Virus record (IMG/VR): IMGVR_UViG_3300035698_001351 | Location: 1 to 32,552 of that record | DNA length: 32,552 nt | Reading direction: 5' to 3' (one strand) | DNA from: a virus | Part shown: positions 898-26,206 of the stretch, one piece after another | Layout: each line of letters opens with the position of its first letter | How positions within the stretch are numbered: the stretch's first letter is position 1 | Position numbers and translations under genes: made by a program | The notes under the pieces: model-generated | The model's input: the letters and a program-made list of their open reading frames with translations, nothing else | Databases searched by the model: none | Told to the model about the DNA's origin: nothing

Positions 898-926
898 ATT
901 ATACACTAACTATACCATGCTGTCAA
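898..926 (-). promoter_or_regulatory. Consensus sigma70-type promoter
   Basis: On the minus strand TTGACA (926-921) is followed after exactly 17 bp by TATAAT (903-898), both perfect consensus boxes. The -35 box lies inside the last codons of the TGT/DpdA-like gene. The predicted transcript starts a few bases before the ribosome binding site of the gene at 867. This is probably an early promoter read by host polymerase. Confidence 0.9.
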
Positions 927-2433
927 GTAACTCTAGTGCATTTTGGTCAAGATCTATTTCGGTGTCTGGGCTGTCTACTTCAAACAAACTGTTAAACTGC
1001 GTTGCTGCGTTAACAATACGTTTACCAGTAAATCCTCTTGTACCTTTAACGGTATCCCAGAACTTGCTGTACTCGTTAATAATGCTCATACTTTTATCAA
1101 AGTCTTTAGCTTCAAACACCCGTTCAACTACATCACGGAACAGTATTCTGTCAAATGTTTCGTGCACCAACATAGCAGGGATAACACCAGCATCATATTC
1201 TCTGTTAGCTCGTTGCACTGATTCAATGTGCATCCATACGTTATGTCCCATAAGCAATGCATACGAAAAGCTATCCCAAGAAGTTTTGCCTTCTTTGCCA
1301 ATTTTGTTTAGCATACCAGGGGCATAATGACACACATCTCCAATAGTCATGCGCTCAGTAATTGGGCTGTTTTCAAACAGCTTGTGTACACCGTCTTTGA
1401 GCACTGCATCACGGAATGGGGTTAAGTCTCCAGCGTATTTTTTGTTATCAATAGTGGGTTCCATTTGGTAACTCCACTTGCCGCGATCTTCGATGCGGAT
1501 ACTGTTGTATACTTGTCCGTTTGCTGTTGCAAGAAACGGGCTTGCGCAGTCAAAGCTAACAGTAAAGTTTTCATTGTGGTGACGTCTAACACTGCGCTGA
1601 ATATCTGTAAGCAGCACAGCCCATTCTAGTTTACTTGTTCCCAAAAAGTGCATCCAGTCGTGCTGACCCTCCTCGAGCAAACCTTCGTGTATAAGCGTAA
1701 CCAAGCGTTTTAGTACTAAATGCACATCACACATGTTCTGTCCACCCATTGACCACCCATTGAATGGATTATCCATCTTGTCACTACAAAAGCCTTTCAT
1801 CTGATCATACCAGTGATCTGCTTCGTGGTGATTTGATCCTTGCAGCACGTTTAGTATTTTTAGATCACCGCCGCGATTGGCCATCCAAAACTCGTTGTTA
1901 TAATGTGTTGCGCTAACTGCATCATCATAACTGCGAATACCACATAGTGCACTTGCTTTTTTATCCAAGTAAGTCCATGTTGGAATATCCATAGTCATAC
2001 CGTGTGTAGCAATACCCATTTGCCAAGCAATAACTTGCTCACGCTTTTTTTCAGCTGTTTTATCTGCAGGATCATTCCATTGTGCAGGCCAAACACCTTT
2101 TGCAATCTGGAACCCACCTGAATCAGCAAGCATGATACTGTCTGCTTCCCGGGCACGTACCATTTCTTCTTTTGGCACATGCTTTGTAACATCTAGATCA
2201 GCATGCCCAGCACTGTACAAACTATACTTGTAAGGGAACAAAGCTTCTTTGCTGTTAAGCCAATTCAGACTTTCCATGTTAGGTATGCCTTTAGGCAATC
2301 TATCGCCAATTACGCTTTTTACCTGGTCTGGGTAACGTTCCTTGCCAATGTATCCAGCATAGAAGCTACTGATAGCCGGCAAGAATATTGCATAGTCTTT
2401 TTGTTTTTCAGTTAAGTTGTCTTGTTCTATCAT
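910..2433 (-). CDS. TGT/DpdA-like guanine transglycosylase (7-deazaguanine modification)
   Basis: 507 residues. TGT-family enzymes exchange guanine for a 7-deazaguanine base in tRNA; the phage and bacterial DpdA branch does this in DNA. Visible family motifs in order are LADSGGFQ with Asp104 (base-binding DSGG), MDIP with Asp149, NVLQGS near 195, GWSMGGQ near 228, and SFDCASPFLATANG with Asp295 in the place of the catalytic nucleophile (TGT: FDCxxPTRxARNG). The CxCxxC zinc cysteines of tRNA-type TGT are absent, although a MGHNVWMHIES segment resembles the TGT zinc-His helix. That loss favours a DpdA-like role over ordinary queuine insertion. No folE, queD, queE or queC is in the window. Near the C-terminus, NSLFEV (481-486) resembles the gp43 tail. 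The DNA-versus-tRNA target is inferred. Confidence 0.78.
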   Translation of the reverse strand: MIEQDNLTEKQKDYAIFLPAISSFYAGYIGKERYPDQVKSVIGDRLPKGIPNMESLNWLNSKEALFPYKYSLYSAGHADLDVTKHVPKEEMVRAREADSIMLADSGGFQIAKGVWPAQWNDPADKTAEKKREQVIAWQMGIATHGMTMDIPTWTYLDKKASALCGIRSYDDAVSATHYNNEFWMANRGGDLKILNVLQGSNHHEADHWYDQMKGFCSDKMDNPFNGWSMGGQNMCDVHLVLKRLVTLIHEGLLEEGQHDWMHFLGTSKLEWAVLLTDIQRSVRRHHNENFTVSFDCASPFLATANGQVYNSIRIEDRGKWSYQMEPTIDNKKYAGDLTPFRDAVLKDGVHKLFENSPITERMTIGDVCHYAPGMLNKIGKEGKTSWDSFSYALLMGHNVWMHIESVQRANREYDAGVIPAMLVHETFDRILFRDVVERVFEAKDFDKSMSIINEYSKFWDTVKGTRGFTGKRIVNAATQFNSLFEVDSPDTEIDLDQNALELLDSMV

Positions 2434-9887: not shown

Positions 9888-10073
9888 TTAATGGCATTTC
9901 TTACAATTACAATGACTGCAAATAACCACTTCACGAACTTCTCCTCCATCACATGCATAATTTTGTTGTAGCATTGTGGCATTGCTGCCACAATGTGATG
10001 GGTAGCCGCAAGTCTTACAAGATGCACTACTTTGAACGGTTGAGTCGCCGCCACTAATTACATTATTTGACAT
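9888..10073 (-). CDS. Small zinc-ribbon-like protein (61 aa)
   Basis: The ATG overlaps the upstream stop (TAATG), so it is probably translated by coupling. The 61 residues include CKTCGYPSHCGS near residues 19-30 and CSHCNCKKC at the end, two CxxC-type pairs spaced as in a zinc ribbon. The segment C-x2-C-G-x-P-S is shared with the neighbouring upstream protein (CENCGNPSY), suggesting a related metal-binding knuckle in both. There is no signal peptide. The function is unknown; small zinc ribbons in phages often bind nucleic acid or other proteins. Confidence 0.75.
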   Translation of the reverse strand: MSNNVISGGDSTVQSSASCKTCGYPSHCGSNATMLQQNYACDGGEVREVVICSHCNCKKCH

Positions 10074-10948
10074 TATGCTTGGTGTAGACGTGATGGAACT
10101 TTTTCTCTAGAAATCTTCTTAGCATATGTTAAATCTGCGTTATCCACTGGTCCTCTAAAGCCGTAAGATCTGTCCCAGATGTGTTCCCAGCCATTTGTTG
10201 TTTTTTTAATGTATGATATTGCTGTGTCTGGGTAACGTACAATACCGTATTCTGTTGTGTCTTCTGCTTCGCTCATTTTAACACAATTGTCTACAGTTTT
10301 GCCGCCTTTTTGTTTAGTACCCATACGCTTGTAGCCTTTCCAGCATACTTTACCGTCTACGCCTTTTTGCTTTTCTTCGGGCAGCGTTGTATAACTTGGA
10401 TTACCGCAGTTTTCGCATACACTAGCTTCGTGTACTGCTTCATTAATACCGTGGTGACGTTTAAAATCAGCAACAAAATCTTCTAGTTGATCACTGCTCA
10501 TATACCGAGTCATTTCGTCAATGATTGTGCCAAATGGTTCAGGTGGCTTTTCGCCACCTGTCATTGCGTCCATCATATCGTAAAATGCATCTGATGCGGC
10601 TCCGACTGCTTCAGTAACTGACTCGTCTGCAATCTTTGCAACGCCTTCTTTGCTGAGCATTCTCTTACCATAGTCCATCATCTTCATGATACTATCGCGC
10701 TTAATACCTGTTTTCTTTTCTAATTCTTGAATGTTACTAGCACCAAATACTGTACCATATGAAGTTAGTTCGTTGCCTACTCGACTAAGTGCAGTTGATA
10801 GTGCATCATCTTTGGTGGTTGCTGCTTTATCCATTAGCTTACGGCCAATGTCTGCAAGCGTCCGTTGTGCTGGGTTAACTTCAAAGTTATCTGGAATGTC
10901 TGCTTCCGCAAATACTGTATTGTCTTCAAATAGGTCTAAAAATTTCAT
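10073..10948 (-). CDS. Phage protein with CWKGYKRMGTK motif, possibly prohead- or virion-associated
   Basis: 291 residues beginning MKFLDLFED, an amphipathic leader resembling the MKINELL leaders of nearby genes. A helical, charged region (35-160) is followed by CENCGNPSY and a segment reading GKVCWKGYKRMGTKQKGGK with a final CVKM, giving four Cys that could bind zinc. I recall this CWKGY..G.K..GGK...NCV segment as a mobile module in structural or DNA-associated proteins of T4-like marine phages. SVTEAVGA (near 109) and INEAVHEA (near 169) resemble prohead-protease sites. The C-terminal domain (YGIVRYPDTAISYIKKT) is unrecognised. It is coupled by TAATG to both neighbours. No enzyme activity is suggested. 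Confidence 0.75.
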   Translation of the reverse strand: MKFLDLFEDNTVFAEADIPDNFEVNPAQRTLADIGRKLMDKAATTKDDALSTALSRVGNELTSYGTVFGASNIQELEKKTGIKRDSIMKMMDYGKRMLSKEGVAKIADESVTEAVGAASDAFYDMMDAMTGGEKPPEPFGTIIDEMTRYMSSDQLEDFVADFKRHHGINEAVHEASVCENCGNPSYTTLPEEKQKGVDGKVCWKGYKRMGTKQKGGKTVDNCVKMSEAEDTTEYGIVRYPDTAISYIKKTTNGWEHIWDRSYGFRGPVDNADLTYAKKISREKVPSRLHQA

Positions 10949-12597: not shown

Positions 12598-12789
12598 CTA
12601 TTCCTTTTTTGTTGCTTCTAGTTTGTATTTAGCAGTATCAAAGGTGTTAGCATACTTGCGCTTGGGTTTTGCAGTAGCTGGTGTGTTACGTCTTACAACA
12701 TCACCAAAGGGCATTGCAACGCCCGGTGCCATCATTCCTGCGCTGCTTGAACCTGCGCTTGCATCTTCTAATAATTCGTTAATTTTCAT
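12598..12789 (-). CDS. Small conserved phage protein with MKINELL leader
   Basis: 63 residues starting MKINELLEDASAGSSSAG, then Gly/Ala/Met/Pro-rich sequence, and ending in a basic helix-poor tail (KPKRKYANTFD, KLEATKKE). I recall small proteins with this N-terminus in several T4-like marine phages, all of unknown function. The leader is shared with the cysteine-rich protein at 13799-14251. The low-complexity middle (SSSAGMMAPG) and basic tail suggest a small internal or DNA-associated virion peptide, but that is inference. The stop overlaps the previous gene's start region by a few bases. Confidence 0.75.
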   Translation of the reverse strand: MKINELLEDASAGSSSAGMMAPGVAMPFGDVVRRNTPATAKPKRKYANTFDTAKYKLEATKKE

Positions 12790-13798: not shown

Positions 13799-14251
13799 TT
13801 AGTAATGTCTTCTTTTTGTAGGAAAGTCCGATGCAATATGATCACGCTTTAAGTTATCTAAGCTAAATGGATCATCTTGCTCTGGGGGGAAAAATGTATC
13901 ACTGAAGTCATTGAATACGTCTTGTGCAGATGCTTGTTTGCGTTCAGTGTTAAAGCCTTTAATGAGTAATCCAACAGCCTTGCCAGGATTGCCAGCATTG
14001 GCTAATGCTGCTGCTTTTTTAATATCCTCGTCAGTAACTCCACCGTTTGGGTCAATGTCTTTTAGGTCTTTAATAGCTTTTGTAATAGCAGCCATTACAT
14101 CAGGGCTTTCTTTGCCTTCCATGACGCTATTGCAGTTACAGTGCTTGCAAGTTGGCGGACATTTGCAATCTTCTCTTTTAACATCTGCACCACAGCACTT
14201 ATCTGAACAATGTGTGTCTTTTGCTTCTTTTAATAACTCATTAATTTTCAT
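13799..14251 (-). CDS. Cysteine-rich phage protein with MKINELL leader
   Basis: The true start is ATG 14251 (MKINELLKEAKD), which overlaps the upstream stop as ATGA; an ATG at 14290 would run back into that gene. 150 residues. After the leader comes a dense Cys cluster, CSDKCCGADVKREDCKCPP then CKHCNCNSVMEG: ten Cys in about 27 residues, enough for two or three metal sites. The rest is a helical domain (PDVMAAITKAIKDLKDID, then KKAAALANAGNPGKAVGLL), and the end is acidic then basic. The Cys cluster lies right after the leader that may be cut off. A role in metal binding or as a small virion protein is possible. I recognise no family. Confidence 0.72.
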   Translation of the reverse strand: MKINELLKEAKDTHCSDKCCGADVKREDCKCPPTCKHCNCNSVMEGKESPDVMAAITKAIKDLKDIDPNGGVTDEDIKKAAALANAGNPGKAVGLLIKGFNTERKQASAQDVFNDFSDTFFPPEQDDPFSLDNLKRDHIASDFPTKRRHY

Positions 14252-16431
14252 TTCTTTTTTCCCTTGCCTCTGCGCATATTTAATTGCCAACGAGCCATAC
14301 GCCCTTTTTCGCCGTCTGCTTTAGCTGCTTTTTCAAGTTGTGCTATTGTGGCATTTTTTGGAATACCCACACGTTGTGACAATCCTTTGCGCCCTGGATT
14401 CTTTCCGTCTGCAAAGTTTTCCCAAAGTGGTCCACTTATTAAGTTATCATCTTGGCTGATTAGTTCATTCTTTATATACGATATAATCTCAGGTGTCAAG
14501 TGTCTTGCACGATTAACATTGTTGCTATTAAAAAATAAATGTACTTCAACTGGAATGTCACCAAATGCTTTTGCAATTGCTAGCATACGATTGCGACCTT
14601 CGTGATTTAATACTGTCGCAGGCTCACCATCTTCTATACGAATAGTTAAAAACGGGCTGCCAATGCCACCGCCATCACGTATGTAATCAACCATTTCAGG
14701 CTCTGGGTCTCTGCCTAGCTTGCTAGCAAGATTAATAAATGTACTTGGTTTCATTTTAACACGCATACCAAAGTAGTCAACATCTTTGTTGTGAGGTACT
14801 ACACCTCTGCCGTCTTTGTTATCAATGTTAACTTGTTCGTTGATGCCTTCGTCGACAAGGTCTGGATTTAGAAGTTTAAAGCTAACACCTAATCCGTAGT
14901 CATCTACATCTAACTGCCAACCCAACTTGTTAGCAAGTTGTTGCGCAAAGCGAGTATACAGTTTGCCGCGACTAGGACCGTCGTCATCTTTGTCTGCACT
15001 GAAGTAAAGATGGTCAATGCTGTTTAGATCAACTTTGGAAAGCCAATCTATTATCACTGCTTTAACTGTGGCAAAGATTTGAAACTCTTCTCCGCCTCCA
15101 GTTTTGTCAAGTGCGCCTTCAACTTTAAATGCTATAGTGTATCCTGAGTCGTAGCGTTTAAACACTACTTCTAACAAACGACCGTCTGTTGTTTTAGCAC
15201 TAGCAACCCATGTTCCGTTGTCTTTGCTTATTAGATTATATGGAAATGGATTGTCCAATGCTTCTGTTACTGTTGTTTCTTTGATTGCTGCTTCTGCATA
15301 GTATTCGTTCTCAGGCGATGCATCATTGGTGCTGTCAGGCCACCAGTCCAATTCATAGCGTTCGCCATCTTTAAACTGTTTCTTCATTCCAAGTATACGA
15401 GCTTCGTATTCTTCTTTGTCTGGTTCTACTCTACCTGCTACTACATCTATTACAAAATTTAGTGTAGTTGCGTTTGCAGTAAGGCTACCACAACGTGCGC
15501 CTACCTCATTTTTCAAATGATCAATTAGTATACTACCACTACATTTTGCTAGTTCGTCACTTAGCTCTTCAGGCACTTCTAAATCTATATAACAGTATAT
15601 AAAGTCATAATGTGGGGCAGGTGATGTATGTAATATATATTCATCTAATACCACAATTCTTTTAAATCCATCCTTGTTATACCAAACAGCTCTTTTATAA
15701 GTCAACTCATCGGGCTTTCCAAAGAATTTTGTAAGATGTTTTACATAGTTAACTGGTTCATCATTTTTCCATTGTGATAACGCATTTGCTTCTGTTACTG
15801 TTTCTTCTTTGATTGCATTATACTGTGCCCACAAACTTTCCGTTAACCCTAAGTTATAAGCTTTGTTGGCACTAGTATTCTTTGCTGCGGTTGCATGTAA
15901 CAACGGTGGACTGCCGTTTTTATCAATTTTCATACCTAACTTAGCAGCTTGGCGCTGTGTTTCACCTGGCTTTACGTCAACAGTAAGTGCAGAGCTAAAG
16001 CGAGGATCTTTTGCTTGTGCCTTGGTTGGGATGTAGCCGCTTGCTTCTTTTAAACCTTTAGGAATGTCGTCTTTGTATAGAATTTCAGCACGGTCTACTA
16101 CCACAGCGTCCAGCGACTCAATGCCCGCTTTGCGAGCAGCAGCATATCGGTGATGCCCATCTAGTATCATGTAACCTTGTGCTGTACTGGTTACAATAAT
16201 AGGATCACCATCCCAGGTGCCTTGCTTCATTTTTAATGCAATTTGCAACAACTGATCGCCGTGTTCTTTGGCTTTCATCTTGTCGTCTGGTTCAAACCCA
16301 AACAACTGATTGAGTGGTATATTTTTGGTTGCAGAGCGTTGTGCAAAGCTGTCAGGAATGTCCGCTCCCCTATATTCAGGGTGCGTCCATAATGTAATTG
16401 TGTCTTTAGATTCAAACCAAGATGCCTTCAT
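14248..16431 (-). CDS. Multidomain phage protein with ParB/Srx-like domains and TVTEA linkers
   Basis: 727 residues, with several separate domains. Residues 35-115 look like a ParB/Srx N-terminal domain (ILDGHHRYAAARKAG, 90-103). Residues 140-170 form a KPGETQRQAAK-type short domain. Another domain (225-365) has the CYIDLEVP strand. Residues 400-525 match a recurrent phage domain (FSADKDDDGPSRGKLY). A second ParB-like element, NHEGRNRMLAIAKAFGD, is at 610-625. The tail has GRKGLSQRVGIPKNAT and a basic end, also seen elsewhere in marine phages. Between domains the linkers KEETVTEANA (212-216) and KETTVTEALD (388-392) recur. No enzyme activity is assigned; ParB-type domains can bind nucleotides. 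A polyprotein or internal head protein is one inference. Confidence 0.75.
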   Translation of the reverse strand: MKASWFESKDTITLWTHPEYRGADIPDSFAQRSATKNIPLNQLFGFEPDDKMKAKEHGDQLLQIALKMKQGTWDGDPIIVTSTAQGYMILDGHHRYAAARKAGIESLDAVVVDRAEILYKDDIPKGLKEASGYIPTKAQAKDPRFSSALTVDVKPGETQRQAAKLGMKIDKNGSPPLLHATAAKNTSANKAYNLGLTESLWAQYNAIKEETVTEANALSQWKNDEPVNYVKHLTKFFGKPDELTYKRAVWYNKDGFKRIVVLDEYILHTSPAPHYDFIYCYIDLEVPEELSDELAKCSGSILIDHLKNEVGARCGSLTANATTLNFVIDVVAGRVEPDKEEYEARILGMKKQFKDGERYELDWWPDSTNDASPENEYYAEAAIKETTVTEALDNPFPYNLISKDNGTWVASAKTTDGRLLEVVFKRYDSGYTIAFKVEGALDKTGGGEEFQIFATVKAVIIDWLSKVDLNSIDHLYFSADKDDDGPSRGKLYTRFAQQLANKLGWQLDVDDYGLGVSFKLLNPDLVDEGINEQVNIDNKDGRGVVPHNKDVDYFGMRVKMKPSTFINLASKLGRDPEPEMVDYIRDGGGIGSPFLTIRIEDGEPATVLNHEGRNRMLAIAKAFGDIPVEVHLFFNSNNVNRARHLTPEIISYIKNELISQDDNLISGPLWENFADGKNPGRKGLSQRVGIPKNATIAQLEKAAKADGEKGRMARWQLNMRRGKGKKK

Positions 16432-24135: not shown

Positions 24136-25008
24136 TTATCCTAGTAGTTTCTCTAGTGTTGCAGGTCCTGCAATACCATCTGCTACTAGACCGTTTGCTG
24201 TTTGCCATGCTTTAAGTGCACGTTCTGTACCTGGTCCAAATGCACCATCAGCTCCAATGCCTAATGCTTCTTGCATCATTTTAACACCTTGGCCTTTGCA
24301 ACCTTTGCGTAATACACCGATGTCATCTACGTCAAAATCATCATCGCCGGCATCTTCTGATAGCGATACTGGGCTACCAAATACTTGCATTGCTTTTGCA
24401 TAACGCTGTTGTCTGTCTGCAAGCCCGATGTTACCACCATTAATCTTTTTAGTCATGCGTGTTACATCATCTGTGTCAGCAATAGTATTAAGTTTGTTTG
24501 TATCCCAGAACCAGCAAGCTGATTCCACTGCACCAGCGGGTGTTGCAACGTATACTGCTGCTGCTTCTGCGCTGATATTAATGCTGCGGCCAAACTTAGT
24601 ATAGTTCTCACGACCTGTTAATTGCTTTAGTCCACGACCACGGAACAACCAACCATCACCAGGTTTTATATTGCCCATTTTGTATTTACGGAACTCATCC
24701 ATATACACATAGTTTGCAATCTTTTCTGGGTTACGTGCATACTCTGCTGCATTGCGTTTTGTTCCGCCTGTACCAAAGTAACGTCCAAACACTGCGTTAA
24801 GTGATTTTTCACTGTAGTTTAGATTTTCTTGTAACGACCGAAAGTTGTTTGATTCGTGTGCGCATTGGCTAATAAAATGTGCTGCTCTCCCGGCAGTGTT
24901 AATCCCATACTTAGGCATTACTGCAACCAGGGCCTCATGCCATGAATCCACATCTTTATTTCCAGGTATTAATTTAGCTAGATGATCTTTTTGTAATACA
25001 AAACTCAT
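24136..25008 (-). CDS. Endolysin: GH19 lysozyme-like domain plus peptidoglycan-binding domain
   Basis: 290 residues. The N-terminal domain is GH19 (chitinase-like lysozyme): AAHFISQCAHESNNF has the catalytic acid Glu52, and SLQENLNYS has the second acid Glu61. FRGRGLKQLTGRENYTKFG and ACWFWDTNKLN are further GH19 signatures. Its C-terminal domain (231-290) is a peptidoglycan-binding repeat, with LRKGCKGQGVKMMQEALG and DGAFGPGTERALKAWQ. It should cleave the glycan strands of peptidoglycan; no signal peptide is visible, so a holin is needed for release. It is preceded by the only perfect late promoter in the window (25034-25041), and the three other lysis genes follow in the same direction. Confidence 0.93.
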   Translation of the reverse strand: MSFVLQKDHLAKLIPGNKDVDSWHEALVAVMPKYGINTAGRAAHFISQCAHESNNFRSLQENLNYSEKSLNAVFGRYFGTGGTKRNAAEYARNPEKIANYVYMDEFRKYKMGNIKPGDGWLFRGRGLKQLTGRENYTKFGRSINISAEAAAVYVATPAGAVESACWFWDTNKLNTIADTDDVTRMTKKINGGNIGLADRQQRYAKAMQVFGSPVSLSEDAGDDDFDVDDIGVLRKGCKGQGVKMMQEALGIGADGAFGPGTERALKAWQTANGLVADGIAGPATLEKLLG

Positions 25009-25033
25009 TTTTATATATCCTCTATTATGTAGG

Positions 25034-25041
25034 TATTTATA
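25034..25041 (-). promoter_or_regulatory. T4-type late promoter upstream of the endolysin
   Basis: Minus-strand TATAAATA, identical to the T4 late promoter -10 motif, lies 26 bases before the endolysin ATG, a suitable distance for a short leader containing the AGAGG-type binding site. There is no -35 box, as is usual for promoters read with a gp55/gp33-type sigma and the clamp. It separates the upstream RNA candidate from the lysis genes. Confidence 0.85.
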
Positions 25042-25092
25042 TGTTTCGTTTGCACCGAAACAAGTTATCGCTATCGCTCAAACTTCTTGTTT
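25042..25092 (-). promoter_or_regulatory. Pair of mutually exclusive hairpins before the late promoter
   Basis: Two inverted repeats share bases. TGTTTCG/CGAAACA pairs 25042-25048 with 25056-25062 (7 bp, loop of 7). AAACAAG/CTTGTTT pairs 25058-25064 with 25086-25092 (7 bp, longer loop with the direct repeat AGCGATAGCGAT). Because 25058-25062 is used in both, only one can form. This could be a processing site or end of an upstream RNA. No run of T follows on the minus strand, so an intrinsic terminator is not supported. Confidence 0.5.
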
Positions 25093-25129
25093 TAAAATAA
25101 TAGAAGATAATAATATTGTTTTATTTCAT

Positions 25130-25500
25130 GTAGATCGTTTCAGTCAGACGGAACCTGTTACGGCCCCATCATCTCAAAGATAAACTTCATGTGAGTCTTA
25201 TCCAGCCGAGAACTTGGAAGTAGGTGTTTATTATACTGCTACACACTGGGCTCTGATCTTTCCCAACCTACATCGACATCGCTGTTTCCAGCTACCTCTT
25301 GCTTCGTTCCTGTGCAAAGAGTTTTTGTGTGTAATGTGCAGTTTTTCAACAGCCAACATGCTGTTTACGTCAACCAGTGAGCCCAATTGGTTTGATGGCT
25401 TCCACACTCTGGTGTGTCGATCAACGTGTTACGTGTGCTCCTATACGGTAGCCTTTTCCACAGCGGAATTACTAACTGGCCCGCCAACCTTGTGTGTTGG
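25130..25500 (-). ncRNA. Candidate large structured non-coding RNA
   Basis: No convincing gene fills 25065-25504. By hand count, 25381-25440 is about 52% GC, while the neighbouring 25081-25140 is about 18%. On the minus strand many helices nest: GAGC (25440) with GCUC (25379) enclosing UUGAU/AUCAA, which encloses CACAC-CAGA-GUGUG; AACAGC/GCUGUU (25348-25365); CUCUU(U)GC with GCAAGAG; AGCUG-GAAA-CAGC, a GNRA tetraloop on this strand; GUAGGU/ACCUAC enclosing UGGG/CCCA; and CGGC/GCCG enclosing GAUAA/UUAUC. The GNRA loop favours the minus strand. It does not match the tRNA, tmRNA or RNase P motifs I know. I cannot find a promoter for it. It could belong to a large phage RNA class such as GOLLD, ROOL or IMES, which needs a covariance search. 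Confidence 0.6.
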
Positions 25501-25504
25501 ATTA

Positions 25505-26206
25505 TTAAAGATGTAGTTTGTTTTTTAGTAGATAATCTGCTGCGGCTGCATGTGCATCTTCTAACGGATGCCCCTTTGGGCCGCATTTAAAATTGTGAGA
25601 ATGACTCCATTCAAGAAACGTTTGGCCGTCAAACTCTAATATACACGGAACTACTTGTTTTTGCAACTGATTAATCGATTTGTGCCAGGAGAGGCCGCCG
25701 CTACCTGGTAATTTTGAAAAAGAGTCTGCAAGTGTAGATTTATATCCTGGGTCTAAACAAGTCATGATAAATTTAATATTATTTTGTTTTAACAGTTGAA
25801 TAGTACTGTGCATCTGTTGTAAATTTCTATGTAAATTCCAAATGTCACTGTCAATATTTTTATAAAAATAATGATCTAGTTTATTGTTGTGCCGCGGGTG
25901 TGTTGTTGTCCACGTGTTATTATGAATGTTAATATAGTCAAATCTCTCAAACCAAGTCCAGTTCACAATAAGCACGTTATCTTGTTTGCTGTGTCCGATG
26001 GCTGCAAAACTCATCCATTGGTTGCCCCGGCCGCCAATCGCAGTAATATTGTAATCAATGTTTAATGACTTTGCAATTAATGCGGGCCATGTGTGTTGAC
26101 TAAAGCTCAGCTGATTTGCAAATACTTCTTGTTGGTCTGAACAATCTGCTAATTCATCGCCGCGGGTAAAACTATCACCAATGGCATACACACCTTTATA
26201 CGGCAT
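25505..26206 (-). CDS. SGNH/GDSL-hydrolase-like protein
   Basis: 233 residues. Block I AIGDSFTRGDE carries the Gly-Asp-Ser nucleophile near residue 11. GGRGNQWMSF (block II) provides the oxyanion Gly/Asn, VNWTWFERF is a block III Asn candidate, and the end has CGPKGHPLEDAHAAAADYL with the Asp-x-x-His of block V. SGNH enzymes hydrolyse esters or acyl groups of lipids or glycans. No signal peptide is seen. Similar proteins occur in T4-like marine phages, often near glycan-related genes. A role in deacylating a surface polysaccharide is plausible but not shown. The stop lies just upstream of the structured RNA candidate, and the ATG abuts the upstream gene. Confidence 0.85.
   Translation of the reverse strand: MPYKGVYAIGDSFTRGDELADCSDQQEVFANQLSFSQHTWPALIAKSLNIDYNITAIGGRGNQWMSFAAIGHSKQDNVLIVNWTWFERFDYINIHNNTWTTTHPRHNNKLDHYFYKNIDSDIWNLHRNLQQMHSTIQLLKQNNIKFIMTCLDPGYKSTLADSFSKLPGSGGLSWHKSINQLQKQVVPCILEFDGQTFLEWSHSHNFKCGPKGHPLEDAHAAAADYLLKNKLHL

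Follow-up and report, generated by a model that had tools for sequence, protein, structure and literature searches.

An apparently undescribed family of pseudoknotted phage RNAs with twin repeats

The minus strand of virus record IMGVR_UViG_3300035698_001351 encodes, from position 25504 to position 25124, a conserved, covarying and pseudoknotted RNA without a conserved reading frame. All positions are those of the window, by which we mean the whole 32,552-base virus record that was analysed. The folded RNA, of about 380 bases, belongs to a large and apparently undescribed family, 201 loci of which, the window's included, were traced in environmental phage sequences, and we have little doubt that these represent a real family of structured RNAs.

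Location, fold and covariation of the RNA

The RNA lies in 496 bases (25009-25504) that hold no credible gene, as a sequence-only reading of this DNA had already remarked for 25130-25500, between an ORF at 25505-26206 and an endolysin gene at 24136-25008, both on the minus strand. The upstream ORF, which by eye we take to be SGNH-hydrolase-like, found no match in PHROG and Pfam searches; the endolysin gene, downstream of the RNA, matches PHROG 181 (E 1.3e-73) and PF01471. The conserved part of the RNA (25124-25504, minus strand), whose limits are those of conservation and not of mapped transcript ends, abuts the upstream ORF, beginning right after its stop codon, and its last conserved base is 25124. 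The hand-counted GC contrast that had drawn attention to the block (about 52% against about 18%) is close to the computed values of 0.50 in 25380-25439 and 0.18 in 25080-25139. By part, GC amounts to 0.459 in the RNA, 0.382 in the upstream gene, 0.426 in the endolysin gene and 0.252 in the spacer at 25009-25123, and the contrast thus arises partly because this spacer is AT-rich. Between the RNA and the endolysin gene, upstream of the latter, the minus strand carries a TATAAATA box (25034-25041) that we take to resemble the T4 late-promoter box and that occurs once in the window against a mean of 3 in shuffles; a late promoter for the RNA was sought in the window, and this sole box is downstream of the RNA.

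The nearest relatives of the window's DNA polymerase are the polymerases of two jumbo phages, Phosso of Sinorhizobium (50.6% identity) and Atu_ph07 of Agrobacterium (45.7%), and because of this similarity the window probably derives from a jumbo phage of the wider Phosso/Atu_ph07 group. Elsewhere in the window, a 507-amino-acid ORF at 910-2433 (minus strand) has no Pfam match; by eye it recalls, we presume, tRNA-guanine transglycosylase or DpdA-type proteins. The MKINELL...E-like starts of the ORFs at 12598-12789, 13799-14290 and 10073-10948 (-) presumably resemble T4 capsid-targeting sequences, which we also seem to recognize in the N-termini of proteins encoded at other loci downstream of the RNA.

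The most telling structural element of the RNA is a pseudoknot of three base pairs, formed between the triplet that follows GUC and another in the loop of a UGGG/CCCA hairpin; in the window these are GAT (25272-25274) and ATC (25255-25257). In 38 distinct and diverse copies of the 3' core aligned without structure (alignment A3), all three pairs show double changes and 99.1% of the cells are paired, a single cell being unpaired, and the two triplets take the forms GAC/GUC, GAU/AUC, AGC/GCU, AGU/ACU, GUG/CAC, GUA/UAC and GCA/UGC. Over the whole 3' core of this alignment 98.8% of the cells are paired, with 26 double-change cells compared to 3.0 in shuffles, and slid versions of the helices pair at no more than 46%. 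A second alignment of the core (A5), comprising 52 copies fitted to covariance model R1, has double changes at 14 of 19 pairs, or 45 cells compared to 7.2 in shuffles. They affect 4 of the 6 pairs of helix PA (GTAGGT, 25266-25271, with ACCTAC, 25220-25225; 98.1% paired), all 4 pairs of the hairpin TGGG (25262-25265)/CCCA (25247-25250) in whose loop the pseudoknot has its 3' arm (96.6% paired, with a single double-changed sequence at each of two pairs), and 6 of the 9 pairs of helix Pc (GATGGGGCC, 25162-25170, with GGTTCCGTC, 25147-25155; 98.7% paired), five of these in a single sequence each and one in three. Helix Pb, formed by TCTC (25208-25211) and GAGA (25172-25175), has no alignment count; in an arm-swap test it scored 4.27 against 4.02, above all 300 swaps (highest 4.14).

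The 5' domain was studied in 36 distinct copies chosen among those of the window's 5' type and likewise aligned without structure (alignment A4). Seven helices account for 93.9% paired cells, double changes are found at 19 of 30 pairs (154 cells compared to 51.6 in shuffles), and slid versions pair at no more than 42%. From the 5' end, helix Ha, GCGG (25481-25484) with CCGC (25463-25466), is paired in every cell of the 36 sequences, one of its four pairs changing from G-C to A-U in three of them, and hairpin Hb (arms 25447-25452 and 25437-25441) has double changes at all five pairs with 86.7% of cells paired. Helix Hc0, ACGT (25424-25427) with ACGT (25367-25370), closes a sub-domain, with three of four pairs double-changed (for example U-A in 22 and C-G in 14 sequences) and 97.2% paired. 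The sequence-only reading had drawn a 5-bp helix in a junction at 25379-25440; this is hairpin Hc, CACAC-CAGA-GTGTG (25403-25407 with 25412-25416), which does covary, at three of its five pairs (91.6% paired), in the forms CACAC/GTGTG, CTCCC/GGGAG and CTACC/GGTAG. In the 3-bp helix Hk, GCC (25397-25399) with GGC (25381-25383), every cell is paired and one of the three pairs shows compensation, to C-G in one case and to U-A in another. Hairpin Hd (AACAG/CTGTT, 25348-25365) has double changes at three of five pairs and is 100% paired, and hairpin Hf (CTCT/AGAG, 25296-25321), which surrounds a conserved GGAACGA, has them at three of four pairs (84.3% paired). In the arm-swap test Hf reached 5.09 against 4.33, above all 300 swaps (highest 4.58); the scores of Hb (3.29 against 3.00, with swaps up to 3.27) and Hd (4.52 against 4.40, with swaps up to 4.68) were less clear, the arms having been poorly excised, and are superseded by the alignment counts given above. 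The helix capped by a GAAA tetraloop that had been proposed at 25281-25292 is present on the minus strand as GCTG-GAAA-CAGC, with a loop of the GNRA type; its length varies among homologues and it has no covariation count. The 5' domain is not uniform across the family, that of L112, L109, L160, L203 and L223 differing from the window's type, and because it varies while the 3' core stays the same, the RNA looks modular.

At least two of the helices drawn by hand in the sequence-only reading are therefore correct, and the test it had proposed, for compensatory changes among homologues, found them in numbers in the 5' domain, the 3' core and the pseudoknot; the pseudoknot itself, the 9-bp helix and the twin repeats discussed below were not among its helices. 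We note that double-change cells count sequences rather than independent events, and that the helices were drawn on the same sequences and alignments in which they were counted. They were drawn by hand because RNAalifold gave poor global structures for an 84-row alignment and for a 97-row alignment of the core.

Single-sequence folding does not reveal the RNA: the folding energy of the minus strand is that of chance sequence (z -0.06, with 46 of 100 shuffles folding equally well), as is that of the plus strand (z 0.66). The longest plus-strand ORF, at 25214-25516, is interrupted by a stop in L012 (97.6% identical as DNA), and its alignments to more distant homologues contain stops, with few exceptions (for example L258 and L287). 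Long open stretches opposite the RNA are common, occurring in 17 to 26 of 135 distinct copies per frame; across homologues of the region no single frame was found to be kept. Neither of the outcomes that would have refuted a structured RNA, paired positions varying freely or a reading frame conserved among homologues, thus applies, the covariation counts standing above those of shuffles.

Distribution of the family and a second copy in a jumbo relative

A search by neighbouring genes covered 9 loci that encode a protein related to the SGNH-like one and, for the endolysin, the best 80 of 427 relatives; it found the region at the same place in L012 and L013, at 97.6% identity. Over 25124-25504 the DNA of L012 is 97.9% identical to the window's without a gap, compared to 77.3% in the SGNH-like gene and 88.9% in the endolysin gene, from which it follows that the RNA is more strictly conserved than the genes flanking it. 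A DNA search of 44 whole records returned these two loci and one addition, L093, beyond doubt, besides many short weak matches. Three exact-pattern scans of IMG/VR then yielded 6, at least 119 and 74 stretches, and a pattern scan of GTDB genomes yielded two contigs of one MAG, RS350, labelled Candidatus Neomarinimicrobiota. These contigs (L223, PBPT01000016.1; L224, PBPT01000082.1) are long and nearly identical in sequence around the RNA and a GIY-YIG gene; since that gene lies upstream of the RNA in both, they are probably binned phage genomes.

Covariance model R2 recovered 99 of 100 and 100 of 100 of these loci at E <= 0.001. The sole miss, L184, was excluded as a chance match to the pattern, and the total of 201 consists of the model-confirmed loci, the window and L312. 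It includes four real copies outside the strict pattern (L127, L130, L174, L206) and excludes repeat retrievals of the same contigs (L091, L092, L100, L103, L226-L229, L233-L238); loci truncated by contig ends were omitted from the analyses of context (n = 157), repeats (n = 185) and the tree (n = 135 distinct). The window itself scores 151.9 bits at 25124-25279, its copy being among the model's own sequences. The contigs bearing the RNA look like those of large T4-related phages. Among named phages, cmsearch with model R2 found no match up to E 5 in PA5oct and Phosso, both covered in full, in 8.4 kb of Melnitz-3 or in 420 of the 490 kb of Atu_ph07; BLAST against 50,697 named phages gave no match for the L116 and L135 copies and only two short, chance-level matches (E 0.5) for that of the window.

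Covariance model R1, run over 47 records, gave strong scores only in G006, G007 and G040; its negatives are soft, since a divergent copy in G006, detected when cmsearch was run on the locus, escaped it. G006 (IMGVR_UViG_3300035070_002626; 299,910 bases) is the closest relative of the window among the records examined. It carries the RNA at 76 kb, adjoining its endolysin gene, and at 257 kb it has gp46, a GIY-YIG gene, a gene we take by eye to be SGNH-like and then the second, divergent copy (L227, 5-370, minus strand). The cmsearch match, at 5-154 on the minus strand, scores 34.2 bits, with an E value of 8.8e-8 when the locus alone is searched and of 5.6e-6 over 215 kb, and the 5' part is related to that of L112 (E 5.1e-5). 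Helix Pc consists here of mostly different bases, yet is fully paired; pairs of another helix are marked as non-standard. In this most divergent of the copies the two repeats are again alike (AGATGAT). We infer that the window's copy reached the endolysin locus from elsewhere.

Twin repeats, neighbouring genes and possible roles

Two short segments of the 3' core, repeat R1 (RNA ACAUGAAG; 25185-25192, minus strand) in the loop enclosed by helix Pb and repeat R2 (RNA ACAUGAAA; 25124-25131, minus strand) in the 3' single strand after helix Pc, are direct repeats of one another. Their first seven nucleotides are identical in 131 of 135 distinct copies, in which they take ten forms (ACATGAA, ACATGAT, ACATAAA, ACATCAA, ACAGAAA, GCATGAA, GCATAAA, ACGTGAA, ACAGGAA and GTATGAA), and they are alike in 178 of 185 loci. 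Both counts took as R1 whatever matched R2 best, which favours agreement; a table anchored on CTC does so less, and of its 118 copies three rows are misread and only one of the other 115 (L196) differs in the first seven nucleotides. On a quick tree built without the repeat columns, at least 21 changes of type fall in R2, 20 in R1 and 3 in the state of being alike. Position-wise tests on independent pairs were not significant, there being too few pairs on supported branches.

No partner of the repeats could be found within the RNA, where the complement of a copy's own motif occurs at 0.24 sites per RNA compared to 0.26 for other motif types. A target in the phage was sought in about 370 kb of six family contigs, and motif and complement taken together were about as frequent as expected (largest excess 13 against 8.8); in about 1.08 Mb of loci the complement was seen 10 times, where 17.4 were expected, and the motif itself 34 times, a figure for which no expectation was computed. 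We infer that R1 and R2 are two sites for one outside partner, which has not been identified. The reading we favour, and hold to be about evenly poised between right and wrong, is that of a trans-acting RNA with R1 and R2 as twin recognition sites, its transcription, action in trans and partner binding all being inferred. In the infected cell the RNA would be made as a stable transcript, either forming the 3' portion of the one from upstream or starting at a promoter of its own, and would act in trans; its fold would display the same 7-nt sequence twice, as R1 in a loop and as R2 in the 3' tail, and both would engage the same outside partner, most likely by base pairing. Since the motif takes many forms while R1 and R2 stay alike, a nucleic acid appears the likeliest partner, although we advance this choice over a protein only tentatively.

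Conceivably, if with rather low likelihood, the RNA may instead be a self-assembling "ornate" RNA that forms a homo-oligomeric particle in the manner of GOLLD and ROOL, which often lie near tRNA islands. It is phage-encoded, has an elaborate fold with a pseudoknot and a GNRA loop, and is better conserved in its 3' than in its 5' part, as is GOLLD according to the accessible portion of PMC12286853. It is shorter, however, at about 380 nt; no tRNA genes were found in the window or in 26 loci; and since the complement of R1 and R2 is not enriched in the RNA, plain pairing of the repeats between copies is unlikely.

The neighbouring genes raise the possibility that the RNA partners a nuclease, forming a ribonucleoprotein with the adjacent SegE-type GIY-YIG protein that it regulates, guides or anchors. 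In 126 of the 157 loci for which enough DNA is available, the gene directly upstream, on the RNA's strand, encodes such a protein; of the remaining 31, five have it directly downstream and two slightly further downstream, and 24, the window's included, have no GIY-YIG gene in the stretch examined. A representative protein, that of L101, matches PF19835, SegE (E 4.2e-35), which is above the cut-off in 20 of 29 family records. Five more loci have a PDDEXK-type gene upstream, one of which matches PF24608 with its first 45 residues, and the jumbo relative G006 bears the RNA at 76 kb and the GIY-YIG gene at 257 kb of one contig. The two ORFs inspected further upstream include a conserved small ORF in 63 loci and gp46 in three (that of L110 is 50.8% identical to gp46 of the Pseudomonas jumbo phage PA5oct). 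On the other side, old gene order explains much of this, the GIY-YIG gene lying near gp46 in several loci. Together with the 24 loci devoid of a GIY-YIG gene and with a related one in a Melnitz phage in which no RNA was detected (a soft negative), this makes a nuclease partner improbable in our view. The linkage may be functional or merely an old gene order; the data do not decide. More speculative still, and in our estimation very unlikely, is the idea of a phage ribonucleoprotein nuclease in which the SegE-type GIY-YIG protein is guided or licensed by the RNA as its subunit, R1 and R2 being twin 7-nt guides that retarget together. If it were true, a large phage could act on competing phages or host sequences, and the divergent copy of the jumbo relative, with its own matched motif pair, would represent a second specificity.

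A cis-acting element, that is a long structured 3' UTR protecting or regulating the upstream mRNA, would account for the placement of the RNA: the upstream ORF ends between -90 and +62 nt from the nominal RNA start in 89 of 93 GIY-YIG loci, the window's conserved part directly follows a stop codon, and a terminator-like hairpin is often found after the RNA (following repeat R2 in 60 of 141 distinct downstream stretches compared to 20 of 186 shuffled ones, with 81 of the 141 lacking one; a simple scan of the window revealed no such site). The upstream gene is not constant, however, and a pseudoknot with twin repeats is, we infer, more than mRNA protection requires, so that we count this explanation too among the unlikely ones. 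The first downstream ORF of at least 100 amino acids is on the RNA's strand in 134 of 158 loci and on the opposite strand in 24; the latter, and the differing contexts, indicate that the RNA is not the leader of one downstream gene, and the former leave a cis role open.

We give hardly any credence to a self-splicing intron or other mobile-element RNA, be it a variant or a remnant: the GIY-YIG neighbour, the several genomic places and the two copies in one jumbo contig are in keeping with it, but there is no Rfam match and the RNA sits between ORFs in the contexts tabulated. Chance or coding DNA, for which a folding energy equal to that of shuffles and the long open stretches opposite some copies might be invoked, is practically ruled out by covariation in the pseudoknot, 5' domain and 3' core and by the stop that the closest homologue has in the frame.

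Comparison with known RNA systems

At the gathering score, the 4227 models of Rfam 15 have no match in the window or in 18 homologous loci. Up to E 10 the window yields just two matches, both on the opposite strand (E 2.1 and 8.2), and the L116 and L188 copies yield none up to E 5. Rfam holds models for IMES, tmRNA, RNase P and group I and II introns; GOLLD, ROOL and OLE are also represented in Rfam 15, as the accessible portion of PMC12286853 indicates. The model search suggested by the sequence-only reading was therefore negative in every test. That reading had allowed for either a known class of large phage RNA or a new one: the first option is not supported by Rfam, whereas the second is, by the compensation seen among homologues. 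ARAGORN found no tRNA genes in the window or in any of the 26 loci scanned, which are short pieces, and no tmRNA. A tmRNA was rejected, neither ARAGORN nor Rfam recognizing a tRNA-like domain with a tag frame in window or loci, and for a group I or II intron the Rfam searches gave no covariance-model match to a catalytic core. Searches of the open-access literature by sequence strings and topics did not find the RNA described, although subscription papers or preprints may describe it; the portions of PMC12286853 and PMC9004378 that were accessible contain no description of it.

HEARO and other nuclease-associated RNAs are conserved RNAs beside an endonuclease gene. The new RNA resembles them in adjoining such a gene, and differs in having no Rfam match, in the SegE-type GIY-YIG nature of the nuclease and in a linkage that is not universal. 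Melnitz-like marine phages, which are aquatic and T4-like, carry a tmRNA (PMC9004378, accessible portion), likewise a structured RNA; the new RNA, in contrast, is not recognized as a tmRNA by ARAGORN or Rfam. As far as can be gathered from the available part of PMC12286853, GOLLD is phage-encoded and elaborate, with a conserved 3' part, a less conserved 5' part and an unknown function, all of which holds for the new RNA as well, and ROOL shares with it a phage origin, pseudoknots and the lack of a known function. The new RNA differs from both in having no Rfam match and no tRNA genes nearby, in being about half the length of GOLLD and shorter than ROOL, and, from ROOL, in its twin repeats and GIY-YIG neighbour. 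Large phage RNAs without an assigned function are a known kind; the present family appears to be new. A widespread, strongly covarying family that is matched neither by Rfam 15 nor by BLAST among named phages would constitute a new class alongside GOLLD and ROOL, for which no function has been established either; in the new RNA the concerted change of the twin repeats makes function testable, since it predicts a partner that can be fished for and lends itself to an experiment with compensatory mutants.
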